64,000 nucleotides of DNA from Aestuariispira ectoiniformans (GTDB lineage: Bacteria; Pseudomonadota; Alphaproteobacteria; UBA8366; Aestuariispiraceae), in the NCBI RefSeq assembly GCF_025136295.1, contig NZ_CP062788.1:744001-808000 (forward strand). Direction: 5' to 3'. Shown here piece after piece: positions 39,287-43,126 of the stretch (positions are counted from its first letter, which is position 1; each line of letters opens with the position of its first letter). The notes under the pieces are model-generated. The model saw only the letters and a program-made list of their open reading frames with translations, searched no databases and was not told where the DNA came from. Both the position numbers and the translations under genes were made by a program.

Positions 39287-41028
39287 GATCCCCCCCGCAT
39301 CGCGCGCCGGTTACGATAAATCCAGCCGGGCAGTCCCACGGCCACAAGAAAGCCCGCCAGGGGCAATGTCGCCTGCAGGAAGGCGAACAGGCCGACCAGC
39401 CGCCTGTCACCACCGCTGGCAAGGCTGACTGCTTCGGTGGTCAGGGTGGCATATCGTCCGGCACCGATGAAGATGGTCGGCAGATATTCGCCCACGCTGA
39501 CGGCAAAGCCGATGGCGGCGGCAACCAGGATCGGGCGCAGCAGGATCGGCAATTTGACCCGCCAGAAGACCCGCGCCGACGACGCCCCCAGGCAGGCCGC
39601 CGTGCGGGCATAGCGGTCGTCGAGCCGCCGATAGGGTTCCGCCAGTGAAAGAAATACATAGGGCAGGACAAAAAGCAGATGCCCCCATATCAGGGCAGGG
39701 AAGGTGCCGTCAATCCGGGCCCATCCAAGCAGGGCCTGCGCCCCGAACAGGAAAGCCGCCTGCGGGATCAGCAGCGGCGTATACAGCAGCCAGAGGGCGC
39801 GGCTGCCGGGATGCAAACCGTGGCGCTGTTCGGTCTCCAGACAGCCCAGCGTGAGGATCAGGGCAAGGCCCGCCGCTGAGGCCCCCAACAGGACGGTGGT
39901 CACCATCGGGCCGGTCAGCATCTCGCCATGGCGCATCCACATGGTAAGGCCCCATTGATCCGGCAGGGCGGATGGATAACGCCAGCGCCAGGCAAGCGAC
40001 CAAAGCGCTAGCATCAGTAAGGATGTAATCCCGGCGATCAGGACCAGCATGATCCCGCCACTGCCCAACCGGCGAAGGGGGGCTTCAAAGCGGCCACGGC
40101 CTCCCTGGCGGACCCAGCCAAGTCCCAGTCTTGCGATGAGACGTTCCAGCATCAGCCAGACGAGCAGCACGGCCAGGGCCATCATCACCTGCAGGCAGGC
40201 CCCGGCCCCCGCCAGGAACTGGAAGTCGAGATCCGGGTCGTTGAACCAGCGTAATACCAGCACACCCAGCGTCGGGCGTGAACTGGGCGTCAGGATCAGC
40301 GCCACATCCACAACCGACAGGGAAAAGACCAGTACCGCGAAAAGCGGCAGACGCATGGGGCCGTAGATCAGCGGCAGGAGCGTCTTGAACCAGGCGGTAA
40401 CCCGGTCATAGCCAAGGGATCGGGATATGGTGAGAGTCCGGTGGGTCGGGGCCTGATGCAAGGCGCCGATCATCATCAGCAACAGATAGGGGGTCTCTTT
40501 CAGGACCAGCGCGGCAATCAGGCTGATGCCATAGGCATCCGGGGCCAATGGCAGGTCCGGTGGCCGGTCCCAGCCGGTCGCCCAGGGGGAGATCAGCCGG
40601 ATGATCCAGCCGCTGGGCGCAAAGAGGAACAAAAAGCCGATGGCAATCGCCGAATGAGGCACGGCCAGCAACGGCCCCAGCACCCGGCGCATCCGGTCAA
40701 ACAGCCTCGTCTGATAGCAGCAGGCGCAGAACAGGCAGACAATCAGGAAGGACAGCAGGCTCGCGCCAATGCCGGTATAAAGCGAGAAAAGCACTGCGTC
40801 CCAAAGGCCGGGATAGGCCAAAAGCCTCCGCCAGGCATCCAGCGACAGCGTCTCGCCGCCCAGGCTGGGCAGGTAATTGAAGGCGGGCAGGACTGCGCCG
40901 ACCAGCCCTGCGCCGACCGGCAACAGAAAGACGGCCAGCGTGACAAGGGGAAAAAGACGCAGCCAGCGCCCCGACCTTACCTGCTGGCCTGTGGAAATCG
41001 TCGTTGCAACGGCAGAGTTAGCTGCCAT
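39283..41028 (-). CDS. YnjC-type ABC transporter permease (fused double domain)
   Basis: A 581-residue permease with about 12 helices in two copies of the binding-protein-dependent permease fold, as in ThiP and FbpB-type transporters. Each half has the EAA-type cytoplasmic loop (e.g. ISRSLGYDRVTAWFKTLLPLIYGPM and AACLGASSARVFWRVKLPILLRPIL). It overlaps the binding-protein gene by 11 bases upstream and the ATPase by 4 downstream. Function inferred from the operon. Confidence 0.92.
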   Translation of the reverse strand: MAANSAVATTISTGQQVRSGRWLRLFPLVTLAVFLLPVGAGLVGAVLPAFNYLPSLGGETLSLDAWRRLLAYPGLWDAVLFSLYTGIGASLLSFLIVCLFCACCYQTRLFDRMRRVLGPLLAVPHSAIAIGFLFLFAPSGWIIRLISPWATGWDRPPDLPLAPDAYGISLIAALVLKETPYLLLMMIGALHQAPTHRTLTISRSLGYDRVTAWFKTLLPLIYGPMRLPLFAVLVFSLSVVDVALILTPSSRPTLGVLVLRWFNDPDLDFQFLAGAGACLQVMMALAVLLVWLMLERLIARLGLGWVRQGGRGRFEAPLRRLGSGGIMLVLIAGITSLLMLALWSLAWRWRYPSALPDQWGLTMWMRHGEMLTGPMVTTVLLGASAAGLALILTLGCLETEQRHGLHPGSRALWLLYTPLLIPQAAFLFGAQALLGWARIDGTFPALIWGHLLFVLPYVFLSLAEPYRRLDDRYARTAACLGASSARVFWRVKLPILLRPILVAAAIGFAVSVGEYLPTIFIGAGRYATLTTEAVSLASGGDRRLVGLFAFLQATLPLAGFLVAVGLPGWIYRNRRAMRGGS

Positions 41029-42217
41029 ATCGGGTCAGCCACCTTTCCTCGATTTTGGTCATCCAGGAGGGATGCGGCTCCGGCAGGACACGGCCCAGTT
41101 CCCCGGCGCTCAACGTCGCAACGCCGCGCGGCAGATCGTCGAACAGGGCCTTGTCCGCAGGCGTCAGGCGGTGCATGGACAGGACCGTCGGCTCCCCCCA
41201 GTAGTCCGGGTTCTGCTTGCGTGCCTGGGCTTCCGGCGACATGAGGAAATTGGCGACAACCATCGCGCCTTCCTTATGGGCTGCGTTGAAGGGGATGGCG
41301 ACGAAATGGGTGTTGCCGATCGTGCCGCCGTCCAGGACGTAGGACCGCGCGCTTTCCGGCAGGCGGCCCTCGGCGATGGCATTGGAGGCCGCGCCCACAT
41401 TGAAGGAATAGGCCAGGTCGATCGCACCATCGTCCAGCATCTGGATCATCGCGCCGCCATTGCGCGGATATTCCTTTCCTTCATGCCAAAGATAGGGGGA
41501 AAGCTTGTCGAGATAATCCCAAAGCGGCTTTGTTACAGTATCGAAATTATCCCCGGCGGGTTTCAACAGCGCGTCCCGGTCCCGCGTCAGTTCCAGCAAC
41601 GCCTGTTTCAGGAAGGTGCTGCCGGTAAAATCGGGCGGCGCGGGATAGGTGACGCGGCCCGGATTGGCGCGGGCATGCGCCAGGATGGCGGCCATGGATT
41701 TTGGCGGGTTTTTGAGGCGCGCACTGTCATGGATGAAGATCATCTGCGCCATGCCCCAGGGGGATTCCAGCCCGTCGGTCGGCACGGTGAAGTCCAGGAC
41801 CGTTGTCGGCTTTTCCACCGTATCGACCAGGGCGAAATTGGGCAGGTTTTCCACGAAGGGACCGTAGAGCAGATCGGCTTCCTTCATCGCCTTGAAGTTT
41901 TCGCCGTTAATCCAGATGAGGTCGATGCTGCCGTCCTCGTCGCGGCCGGTGGACTTTTCCGCCAGCACCCGGCGCACGGCCTCTGCCGTGTCGCCCAGGT
42001 TCACATGCACCAGCTTGACGCCATAGTCTTGCCTGACCCGCTGGCCGACCCAGTCGATATAGCTGTTATAGGTGCTGCTGCCGCCCCAGGCATTCCAGTA
42101 GACGGTCTGCCCCCGGGCGGCCTTGGTGACGGACGGCCAGTCCGCCTCGTCAGCCTGCCCCGCCACGGGCAAAAAGGCCATGGCCGCTGCGGCAAAGATC
42201 AACGATTTCAGGCGCAT
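41018..42217 (-). CDS. YnjB-type solute-binding protein
   Basis: A 399-residue periplasmic binding protein with signal peptide KSLIFAAAAMAFLPVAGQA. It shows GQTVYWNAWGGSSTYNSYIDWVG near the N-terminus of the mature chain, closely like E. coli YnjB, with FTVPTDGLESPWGMAQMIFIHDSARL and IPFNAAHKEGAMVVANFLMSPEAQA. It is the first gene of the transporter operon. Start at 42217 is used because the signal peptide then begins at the initiator Met. Ligand unknown. Confidence 0.9.
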   Translation of the reverse strand: MRLKSLIFAAAAMAFLPVAGQADEADWPSVTKAARGQTVYWNAWGGSSTYNSYIDWVGQRVRQDYGVKLVHVNLGDTAEAVRRVLAEKSTGRDEDGSIDLIWINGENFKAMKEADLLYGPFVENLPNFALVDTVEKPTTVLDFTVPTDGLESPWGMAQMIFIHDSARLKNPPKSMAAILAHARANPGRVTYPAPPDFTGSTFLKQALLELTRDRDALLKPAGDNFDTVTKPLWDYLDKLSPYLWHEGKEYPRNGGAMIQMLDDGAIDLAYSFNVGAASNAIAEGRLPESARSYVLDGGTIGNTHFVAIPFNAAHKEGAMVVANFLMSPEAQARKQNPDYWGEPTVLSMHRLTPADKALFDDLPRGVATLSAGELGRVLPEPHPSWMTKIEERWLTRYGS

Positions 42218-42419
42218 GCCGTCTTCCTCTTCAATAGCTGGCTTTATGGCGGAGACTAGCTTCACCACATAGTTTTGTCAGCAGGCTATGGTTTGGTTAC
42301 ACAGGAAAGTTACTTGTTGTTATCATTGAATTGTCGCTTGCGCTGGATAAGGGTTCTGCTATAGAAGCGACTGAGGGACGGCAGAAATTTGCCCGGCCCG
42401 CGTAACAGGTTCGAGGGAA

Positions 42420-42601
42420 AGACCCGATGGTCTCACATGTTGTCATCCGACGACGACGACGTCGCCAGAGCAACCGGCAGGAGCCGGCTGTGACCGCGAT
42501 GTGTTGCCTTCGGAACGACCATAGGGCCCGGAACCTGGATTGATGGCCCAAGGGGGTCTCCGACGGCATGAATGTGATGCCTGACTGGGAGAGACCCGAT
42601 G
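42420..42601 (+). promoter_or_regulatory. leader RNA with mutually exclusive pairings over the GNAT start
   Basis: Visible pairings: AGACC-CGAT-GGTCT (42420-42433) holds the leader ATG in its loop; CCGGC-AGGA-GCCGG (42474-42487); GGGCC (42524-42528) with GGCCC (42545-42549), enclosing the leader stop; and GGGTCTC (42554-42560) with GAGACCC (42590-42596), which covers the GNAT ribosome binding site GGGAGAG. GGTCTC at 42429-42434 competes for the same GAGACC. A stalled ribosome in the arginine run would change which pairing forms. Confidence 0.5.
42427..42543 (+). CDS. 38-residue leader peptide with six-arginine run (candidate attenuator)
   Basis: An upstream reading frame with a strong GAGGG site 9 bases before ATG. 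Codons 8-13 (42448-42465) are CGA CGA CGA CGA CGT CGC, six arginines in a row, four of them the rare, slowly read CGA. Two more basic residues follow. The frame ends TGA at 42541, 55 bases before the GNAT start. Too short for normal gene finders. The codon run and the adjoining complementary segments (see 42545-42601) point to a ribosome-stalling or attenuation leader, comparable in concept with arginine/ornithine-sensing leaders, but the identity is not established. Confidence 0.6.
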   Translation: MVSHVVIRRRRRRQSNRQEPAVTAMCCLRNDHRARNLD

Positions 42602-43126
42602 ACCTACTTGATTGATCTGCAAAAAACCGGTGATGCTGCTGCTGTAGAGCGGCTGATCGAGACCTGTTTCGGCCCCAACCGGAACAAACGGACCGTCTAT
42701 GCCTTCCGGGACGGCATCCCTCCCTATCCTGAATTCTGCTTTGTTGTGCGTGATGACGACGGTGAACTGGTCGCCAGCCTCCGCTTCTGGCCGGTGCAAC
42801 TGCCGGACGGGCGGGTCCTGCCGTTGCTGGGGCCGCTGGCGGTGGAACAGGCGTTGCGGGGCAAAGGGGTCGGCAAGGCGCTGTTGCGTCACGGGATCGA
42901 GGCTGTGCGGCAGGCGGGGCATGATGGCATTCTGATCATCGGCGACCCGGCCTATTATACCCAGTTCGGTTTTTCGGAAAGCCATGCGGTGGCCATGGAA
43001 ATGCCGGGGTCGGTTCATCCGCTGACCTTCATGGCGCTGGATTTCGAACGGGATGGTTCTGTGCCTTTGAAGACGGTTGAGGGTGTGGTCACGCCGGTGC
43101 CGTCTGTGATCGAACGACAGGCCTAG
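42599..43126 (+). CDS. GNAT N-acetyltransferase (YhbS-like)
   Basis: A 175-residue acetyltransferase of the YhbS branch of the GNAT superfamily. The acetyl-CoA binding motif is GPLAVEQALRGKGVGKALLRHGIEAVRQAG (Q/R-x-x-G-x-G/A present), with GILIIGDPAYYTQFGFSES after it. Start is ATG at 42599 with GGGAGAG upstream; the surrounding bases closely resemble the start region of the leader peptide. The long structured leader makes translational control likely. Acceptor unknown; some alphaproteobacteria have a GNAT beside ornithine decarboxylase, which is why polyamine metabolism is a possible link. Confidence 0.9.
   Translation: MTYLIDLQKTGDAAAVERLIETCFGPNRNKRTVYAFRDGIPPYPEFCFVVRDDDGELVASLRFWPVQLPDGRVLPLLGPLAVEQALRGKGVGKALLRHGIEAVRQAGHDGILIIGDPAYYTQFGFSESHAVAMEMPGSVHPLTFMALDFERDGSVPLKTVEGVVTPVPSVIERQA

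Follow-up and report, generated by a model that had tools for sequence, protein, structure and literature searches.

A short upstream open reading frame (uORF) with a run of CGA arginine codons, followed by an RNA hairpin, precedes the same GNAT acetyltransferase gene in many distantly related alphaproteobacteria. In this study, we describe the leader in a window of 64,000 nucleotides (the whole stretch of DNA analysed) from Aestuariispira ectoiniformans, whose genome is a single contig of 4.36 Mb. The frame, its spacing, the codon-level conservation of CGA, the stem-loop and the association with the GNAT gene all recur among relatives. We propose, with a probability of about one half, that slow decoding of CGA by tRNA-Arg(ICG) against the hairpin sets GNAT expression, the dwell of the ribosome tracking the supply of Arg-tRNA(ICG).

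The leader and its parts

The uORF occupies positions 42427-42543 of the forward strand and comprises 38 codons, with its ATG at 42427 and its stop codon at 42541-42543. A first-pass annotation of this DNA had described such a frame, with a good ribosome binding site and with four CGA codons followed by CGT and CGC at 42448-42465, and the sequence confirms it. The parts of the locus are as follows.

42413..42418, forward strand: Shine-Dalgarno-like GAGGGA of the uORF (from the sequence)
42427..42543, forward strand: leader uORF, 38 codons and stop, MVSHVVIRRRRRRQSNRQEPAVTAMCCLRNDHRARNLD (from the sequence; counterparts kept in relatives)
42448..42465, forward strand: arginine run CGA CGA CGA CGA CGT CGC, uORF codons 8-13 (from the sequence; conserved at the codon level)
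42470..42491, forward strand: stem-loop GCAACCGGC-agga-GCCGGCTGT, 5 nt past the arginine run (hairpin search; position-specific fold signal in 82 loci)
42554..42560, forward strand: GGGTCTC segment with two possible pairing partners, 42591-42597 at the start of the GNAT gene and the AGACCC of the uORF start (42420-42425)
42587..42597, forward strand: Shine-Dalgarno-like GGGAG of the GNAT gene and adjoining ACCC, 3' arm of a predicted hairpin (sequence and fold)
42599..43126, forward strand: YhbS-like GNAT acetyltransferase, 175 aa (Pfam PF00583/PF13508/PF13527)

In the minimum-energy fold, GGGTCTC at 42554-42560 is predicted to pair with GAGACCC at 42591-42597, over the GNAT Shine-Dalgarno, and the pairing with the uORF start (42420-42425) was found by inspection only. 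The stretch folded as a whole gives a z of -1.98, with 7 of 200 shuffles folding at least as well. The start regions of the uORF (42415-42432) and of the GNAT gene (42587-42604) are near copies of each other (GGGAAAGACCCGATGGTC and GGGAGAGACCCGATGACC), so that 42554-42560 could pair with either.

The 38-residue peptide matches 0 Pfam families and hence has no DUF1127 domain match. A second ATG, at 42437, opens an overlapping frame (42437-42493, MLSSDDDDVARATGRSRL) that reads an aspartate run out of the same repeat and differs from the frame that is conserved. Divergent to the GNAT gene, on the reverse strand at 41018-42268, lies a gene that by eye resembles those for ABC transporter substrate-binding proteins; similar substrate-binding genes stand at the same place in four relatives of the same family (L002, L003, L007 and L013).

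The frequency of such an arrangement in the organism itself was assessed on both strands of 444 kb of its genome, made up of the window and 19 further stretches of 20 kb. This sample contains 13 copies of CGACGACGA, and only two of them have an in-frame ATG 3-12 codons upstream, the one in the uORF and another within a long ORF; the window match is flagged as lying within an ORF solely through an antisense open frame of 229 aa. CGA accounts for 479 of the 8106 arginine codons (5.9%) in the long ORFs of the sample, and CGA-CGA-CGA is never found among their 123,152 codons. A chance origin is rejected by these counts together with the shuffles and the frame test described below, and it is the conservation in relatives that settles the question.

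Conservation of the leader among alphaproteobacteria

We compared 125 regions upstream of alphaproteobacterial GNAT relatives, made up of 20 loci from a first search, 25 direct loci and 80 fetched ones. A GNAT profile matched 183 of 386 genomes of the class at E <= 1e-25, and the 125 loci are mostly its best scorers, chosen roughly top-down, with second copies and the weakest matches mostly left out. Loci L021-L030 of the first search were not carried as such: G043, G046, G051, G056 and G057 re-entered via profile matches, the weaker relatives L027-L030 were excluded, and G054, checked among further loci, has no run.

An ATG followed after 3-12 codons by three arginines, in any codon, is present in 74 of the 125 loci, a share of the best-scoring relatives and not of all genomes, given the top-down choice. 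Dinucleotide shuffles (20 rounds) yield 5.8 loci on average and never more than 9, so that the uORF cannot be attributed to chance; the reverse complements of the 125 loci give 5. The hexamer CGACGA lies at -260 to -60 in 105 of the 125 loci, and the arginine run is located 82-257 nt upstream of the start of the GNAT match. An ATG at most 12 codons upstream, with no stop between, is found for 82 of the 105 in the CGA frame, against 11 and 5 in the other two frames, and the distance from ATG to CGA peaks at 7 codons (26 ATGs) and 8 codons (20). When each of the 47 families is represented by a single locus, 37.7 loci are anchored on average over 200 draws, with 29.0, 3.0 and 1.1 in the three frames. 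The first-pass annotation had named the conservation of frame and run in close relatives as the point on which its reading could fall, and both the leader and its arginine run withstand that check.

Counted in this manner, uORFs starting with ATG are present in 82 of 125 loci and 33 of 47 families (shuffled 1.25 loci, maximum 2). When GTG and TTG starts are also allowed, the numbers become 97 loci and 36 families (shuffled 4.45 loci, maximum 8), and 28 of the 125 loci are without a uORF even then. The leader frames contain two to four CGA codons in a row, and Shine-Dalgarno-like 4-mers precede 38 of the 82 ATG-started uORFs (shuffled mean 26.5, maximum 32). Some loci had suggested a nearly leaderless start, with a -10 box near the ATG of the uORF, but the position profile shows no common box and this reading was rejected. 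A search of 289 genomes of the class with the 38-residue peptide returned weak matches only (best E 0.007 besides itself), from which it follows that start, spacing and run are conserved and the whole peptide is not. The residues ahead of the run differ between loci, as do the uORF lengths.

A later sample of 37 loci came from the family of G084 (7 genomes) and the family of G499 (f177), the latter represented by 81 genomes drawn at almost one per genus, of which 65 matched and the best 30 were taken. Thirty-three of the 37 genomes were new; G084, G210, G306 and G380 were already among the 125, and the G499 uORF belongs to a set of 43 loci described below. With a start-to-run distance of up to 15 codons, a CGACGA uORF is found in 33 of 37 loci with ATG and in 37 of 37 with ATG, GTG or TTG; MLNIRINRRRMEARA, MFDFALIRFDRRRKGARA and MRHVMLRRRTLCLPG are examples. 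In f177 the uORF is present, counting GTG and TTG starts, in all of the best 30 of the 65 matching loci (29 genera). We take this family to be Rhizobiaceae, since its members and S. meliloti share 81-83% identity in odc.

One genome (G361) has two GNAT copies: one (L133) with a uORF MARCVSQRRR... encoded with CGA-CGA-CGA, the other (L104) with a GTG-started frame and two CGA. Plasmid records contain 13 GNAT relatives, and 11 of these were inspected. R. leguminosarum pSK03 carries MFISRNPRRR* (CGA-CGA-CGC) just ahead of GNAT; the other 10 inspected loci show no CGA-CGA run in the leader of GNAT or odc.

The stem-loop and the region downstream

In 40-nt windows over the 82 loci with CGACGA and an in-frame ATG, the mean fold z is -0.46, -1.40, -1.52, -0.97 and -0.30 at 0, +5, +10, +15 and +20 from the first CGA (se 0.12-0.16), and lies between -0.21 and +0.42 at the other positions. 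Measured from the first CGA, the start of the best hairpin has a median of 14 nt, in a search from +9 onwards that places 18 of the 82 hairpins at this limit; the median number of pairs is 11. These hairpins have no common sequence. In 33 later loci the fold signal is weaker and broader (z of -1.04 at +5, se 0.17, and -0.58 at +40).

In f177, 18 of 29 segments align on a predicted 5-pair hairpin around the stop codon, in which one pair is changed on both sides in three sequences and the covariation term is near zero. The 18 were chosen by eye for a similar hairpin, a choice that leans towards a structure, and the alignment gives the putative hairpin modest support. In this family (L325-L354) the uORF frequently closes with ARA, its stop codon forming the loop of a GCGCC-TGA-GGCGC hairpin, and many of its leaders show a second hairpin and then a pyrimidine-rich stretch.

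At the GNAT start, the fold z across the 82 loci is +0.42 to +0.68 for windows starting at -40 to -20 from the start of the match and mildly negative at -70, -60 and 0 (-0.38, -0.54 and -0.62), and a general sequestration of the ribosome binding site is rejected. The pairing over the GNAT start envisaged in the first-pass annotation is thus predicted in the window (42554-42560 with 42591-42597) and is not general across the family. A general intrinsic terminator is likewise rejected: terminator-like sites appear in only 13 of the 82 loci, the window locus not among them, in a scan of our own without a shuffle control.

The acetyltransferase and its clades

The protein encoded downstream matches Acetyltransf_1, _7 and _9 of Pfam, and a profile of 17 GNAT relatives finds its best matches in PDB entries 4rs2, which we take to be E. 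coli YhbS, and 4zbg. A role as N-acetylglutamate synthase was considered and rejected, no NCBIfam model reaching its cut-off for 8 GNAT proteins, with weak matches only for those that have any. That this GNAT is the gene that goes with the leader, as first annotated, is upheld by the recurrence of the uORF upstream of its relatives.

A run of at least 3 arginines beginning CGA-CGA is found in 0 of 20 GNAT relatives from outside the alphaproteobacteria. Among 43 further alphaproteobacterial loci, which came from well-sequenced groups, 5 have such a run (L206, L237 and L246-L248) and 38 do not; 15 of these 38 sit behind an ornithine decarboxylase gene. In a tree of 68 GNAT proteins, 41 with a uORF (under a looser rule of two CGA) and 27 without, 9 changes of label are counted, where shuffled labels give 21.3. 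A sister clade comprises 15 GNATs without the uORF, every one of them adjoined by an ornithine decarboxylase gene, and none of the uORF-bearing loci searched has such a gene adjacent. The uORF is also missing from a separate clade, made up of four loci of family f26.

In S. meliloti and Neorhizobium the GNAT gene follows odc2, and in Thalassospira it follows a gene for a 'type III PLP-dependent enzyme'. The odc-linked GNAT loci have leaders matched by Rfam speF, together with ar45 in 3 of 6 records, and the plain reading is that the decarboxylase-linked GNAT copy sits under another leader. In the odc2 leader of S. meliloti CP090106.1 (L176, 837-1146) and in that of L183 (57-272), ar45 (RF02347) lies directly 5' of speF (RF00518); the ar45 part contains GCAACGACGG and then a hairpin, and the open frame through it shows, by eye, an indel between Sinorhizobium and Thalassospira. 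The decarboxylase-like gene of A. ectoiniformans itself (L033) has no Rfam speF match and no Arg-run uORF close upstream. From the sister-clade link to ornithine decarboxylase, polyamine or arginine metabolism would be the likeliest field of the GNAT, in keeping with the connection to polyamine genes first suggested for this locus.

Codon identity and the decoding tRNA

As the 82 loci were chosen for CGACGA, the first two codons of their runs are CGA by selection, and the unselected counts are those of run starts in the 125-locus scan and of the third run codon in the 82 loci. In the former, 71 of 76 arginine runs start with CGA-CGA, and CGA makes up 213 of 268 run codons (71 of 361 in shuffles). 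The third codon is CGA in 62 loci, CGT in 4, AGA in 3, AGC in 3 and others in 10. Outside the run, the arginine codons of the 82 uORFs are CGC (88), CGG (52), CGT (30), CGA (27), AGG (14) and AGA (5). In f177, CGACGACGA is found in 29 of 30 loci (29 genera), the remaining locus having CGACGATGA, and CGA accounts for 0 of the 39 arginine codons outside the run in the 25 uORFs with CGACGACGA and an ATG.

CGU, CGC and CGA are decoded by one tRNA, and CGA only by the inosine-containing tRNA-Arg(ICG). The tRNA-Arg anticodons among the tRNAs found in the organism's own genome are ACG, CCG, TCT and CCT; TCG is not among them, in a search that may have missed genes. Slow pairing of inosine with A fits these observations, since CGU and CGC share the tRNA of CGA and are commoner. 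With CGA kept, the tRNA shared and no TCG found, the selected trait is likely the slow reading of CGA, and the CGA codons thus keep the place of probable slow step that they had in the first-pass annotation. In papers available to us in part, as are all those cited here, CGU and CGC are decoded faster than CGA in the Salmonella his leader (PMC4046918), and B. subtilis without inosine-34 shows more frameshifting at CGA (PMC10454642).

Proposed mechanism and alternatives

In the mechanism that we propose, ribosomes starting at the uORF of a cis-acting leader would translate some seven codons before they meet the CGA run, where dependence on tRNA-Arg(ICG) as the sole reader of CGA would slow them, with the stem-loop standing at the mRNA entry; judging from the usual footprint, a CGA codon in the A site would place the hairpin at the entry of the ribosome. 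The stay at the run would depend on the supply of Arg-tRNA(ICG), and its duration would set the amount of GNAT. By analogy with Salmonella orf34-speF, the most likely direction would be that slow decoding, at low arginine, turns GNAT on. The output could be exerted on transcription (Rho), mRNA decay or translation; given a GNAT start with little structure, the scarcity of terminators and a hairpin-to-GNAT segment that is mildly C-rich (C 0.338, G 0.285), Rho termination or decay would be left. We infer uORF translation, ribosome dwell, signal, direction and downstream step alike from these sequence features.

Several known leaders are comparable, orf34 of Salmonella being the nearest parallel that has been worked out. 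The gammaproteobacterial orf34 (the speF leader peptide, DUF2618) is likewise a short uORF with consecutive arginine codons near its start, RNA structures downstream and a polyamine context, in which pausing at the arginine codons is the signal; in Salmonella, pausing at Arg12-Arg13 under low arginine favours speF (PMC6386406). In the available part of that study, CGACGA and CGCCGC both worked, frequent codons sensing arginine equally well, and arginine sensing alone would therefore not demand CGA. Thus orf34 relies on two arginine codons, rare or frequent, within a conserved peptide (HIRRT) and controls ornithine decarboxylase, whereas the leader described here preserves the CGA codons but not the peptide, and its target is a GNAT. 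The cysS motif uORFC-8-2 of Rhodobacterales shares tandem control codons and order-level conservation in alphaproteobacteria, but its Cys codons are usually at 14-15, before cysteinyl-tRNA synthetase, and it is described as ribosome-mediated transcription attenuation (PMC8632094). In the alphaproteobacterial duf1127 uORF of S. meliloti, early codons also control the downstream gene; there, codons 3-10 are C-rich, the response is to tetracycline and a discontinuous rut site is presumed, with no CGA run mentioned in the part available (PMC12218461). Of the traits of trp/his-type attenuators, a translated leader with a run of control codons may be present, the frame and its codon run being conserved; an intrinsic terminator and antiterminator are not general, and our scan shows no terminator-like site in the window locus. 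We found this leader described nowhere in the literature searched, although supplementary tables of motifs or small ORFs might hold a row, and it is absent from the available parts of PMC12218461, PMC9426467, PMC10117765, PMC8632094, PMC6386406, PMC4046918 and PMC10454642.

A fixed brake is possible, if rather unlikely: the CGA run and hairpin would constantly lower GNAT, by ribosome blocking, peptidyl-tRNA drop-off, tmRNA rescue or mRNA decay, and would sense nothing. The hairpin and the codon-level conservation suit a brake as well as a sensor, no switch structure is conserved downstream, and in 8 of the 105 anchored loci a stop codon directly follows the CGA run. Near-fixed spacing and a dedicated uORF in 33 of 47 families would, however, be much to maintain for a low level that a weak ribosome binding site would give.

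Sensing could also be narrower than we propose. The leader might monitor wobble-inosine formation by TadA, or tRNA-Arg(ICG) itself, through the pairing of inosine-34 with A at CGA, rather than arginine generally, and so drive a GNAT of polyamine or arginine metabolism; we consider this unlikely.

Some GNATs are drug-modifying enzymes, and a short arginine-rich chain that stalls in the tunnel, perhaps with a ligand (a polyamine, ornithine) or an antibiotic, would suit such a gene. Arg-X-Arg at about residues 8-10 resembles the macrolide stall motifs of resistance leaders, the run begins at about residue 8-9 in many loci, and an Arg-Leu-Arg leader before hflX has been likened to antibiotic-type leaders (PMC8632094). 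Nascent-peptide arrest would, however, allow the commoner CGC, CGT and CGG, yet CGA is kept. Moreover, the residues before the run are variable, the third codon does not encode arginine in 11 of 82 loci, and the divergent f177 locus (L353) encodes MLFIRR*. In the uORFs only the arginine run is conserved, and at the level of codons. Since codon identity is kept and the surrounding peptide is not, the stalling on a nascent poly-Arg chain as such that the first-pass annotation had allowed for is unsupported, and arrest of this kind is doubtful.

It is improbable that the element acts at the RNA level, with an incidental frame, and that a protein binds to CGACGACGA and the hairpin or that these pair with an sRNA or with the leader itself. 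In the set anchored on CGACGA, the bases of CGA are indeed the most conserved letters. Both near the GNAT start (7 of 82 loci; shuffled mean 1.8, maximum 5) and past the run (8 of 82; shuffled 2.4, maximum 6), TCGTCG is enriched, and the third codon, where it departs from CGA, encodes arginine in 9 of 20 cases, about the expectation for single-base changes, which does not favour the amino acid. Such a site would not account for the preference of start codons for the CGA frame (82 of 105 loci; 11 and 5 in the other frames) or for the preferred distance of 7-8 codons, and TCGTCG pairing concerns a minority of loci.

Membership in the known speF or odc1 leaders for ornithine or polyamines is highly improbable: sister GNATs do lie behind odc2 with speF (RF00518) and ar45 (RF02347) leaders, in the same bacterial class and in operons holding a GNAT of the same family, but the speF search that had been suggested for this locus gave no match in the uORF leader up to E 10, and Rfam at the gathering score gave none in the window and none but tRNA in 20 related loci, the same search finding speF in rhizobial odc leaders as a positive control, a result that refutes membership in speF. 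In the organism's own genome it gives no speF match, though the control is also silent there. The HIRRT core is absent from the uORFs translated from relatives. The odc1 motif (uORF-25-1) is a structured alphaproteobacterial leader with a uORF too, but is set apart by its description, in the part available, as a uORF of fixed length (11 aa) that starts with UUG, two nucleotides ahead of the main start codon (PMC8632094), unlike a CGA-run uORF of varying length far upstream of the GNAT match.

Slow CGA decoding coupled to the supply of Arg-tRNA(ICG) is the reading that we favour, and the earlier reading of the locus is partly supported. With an ATG-started uORF in 33 of 47 sampled alphaproteobacterial families and no Rfam family in the loci searched, the leader would be a class-wide regulatory element. 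That one synonymous codon is conserved suggests selection on decoding speed, and the leader gives a handle on an acetyltransferase family tied, via its sister clade, to ornithine decarboxylase. If reading by inosine is indeed what is sensed, the leader would use a run of one codon to monitor a wobble modification of a tRNA.
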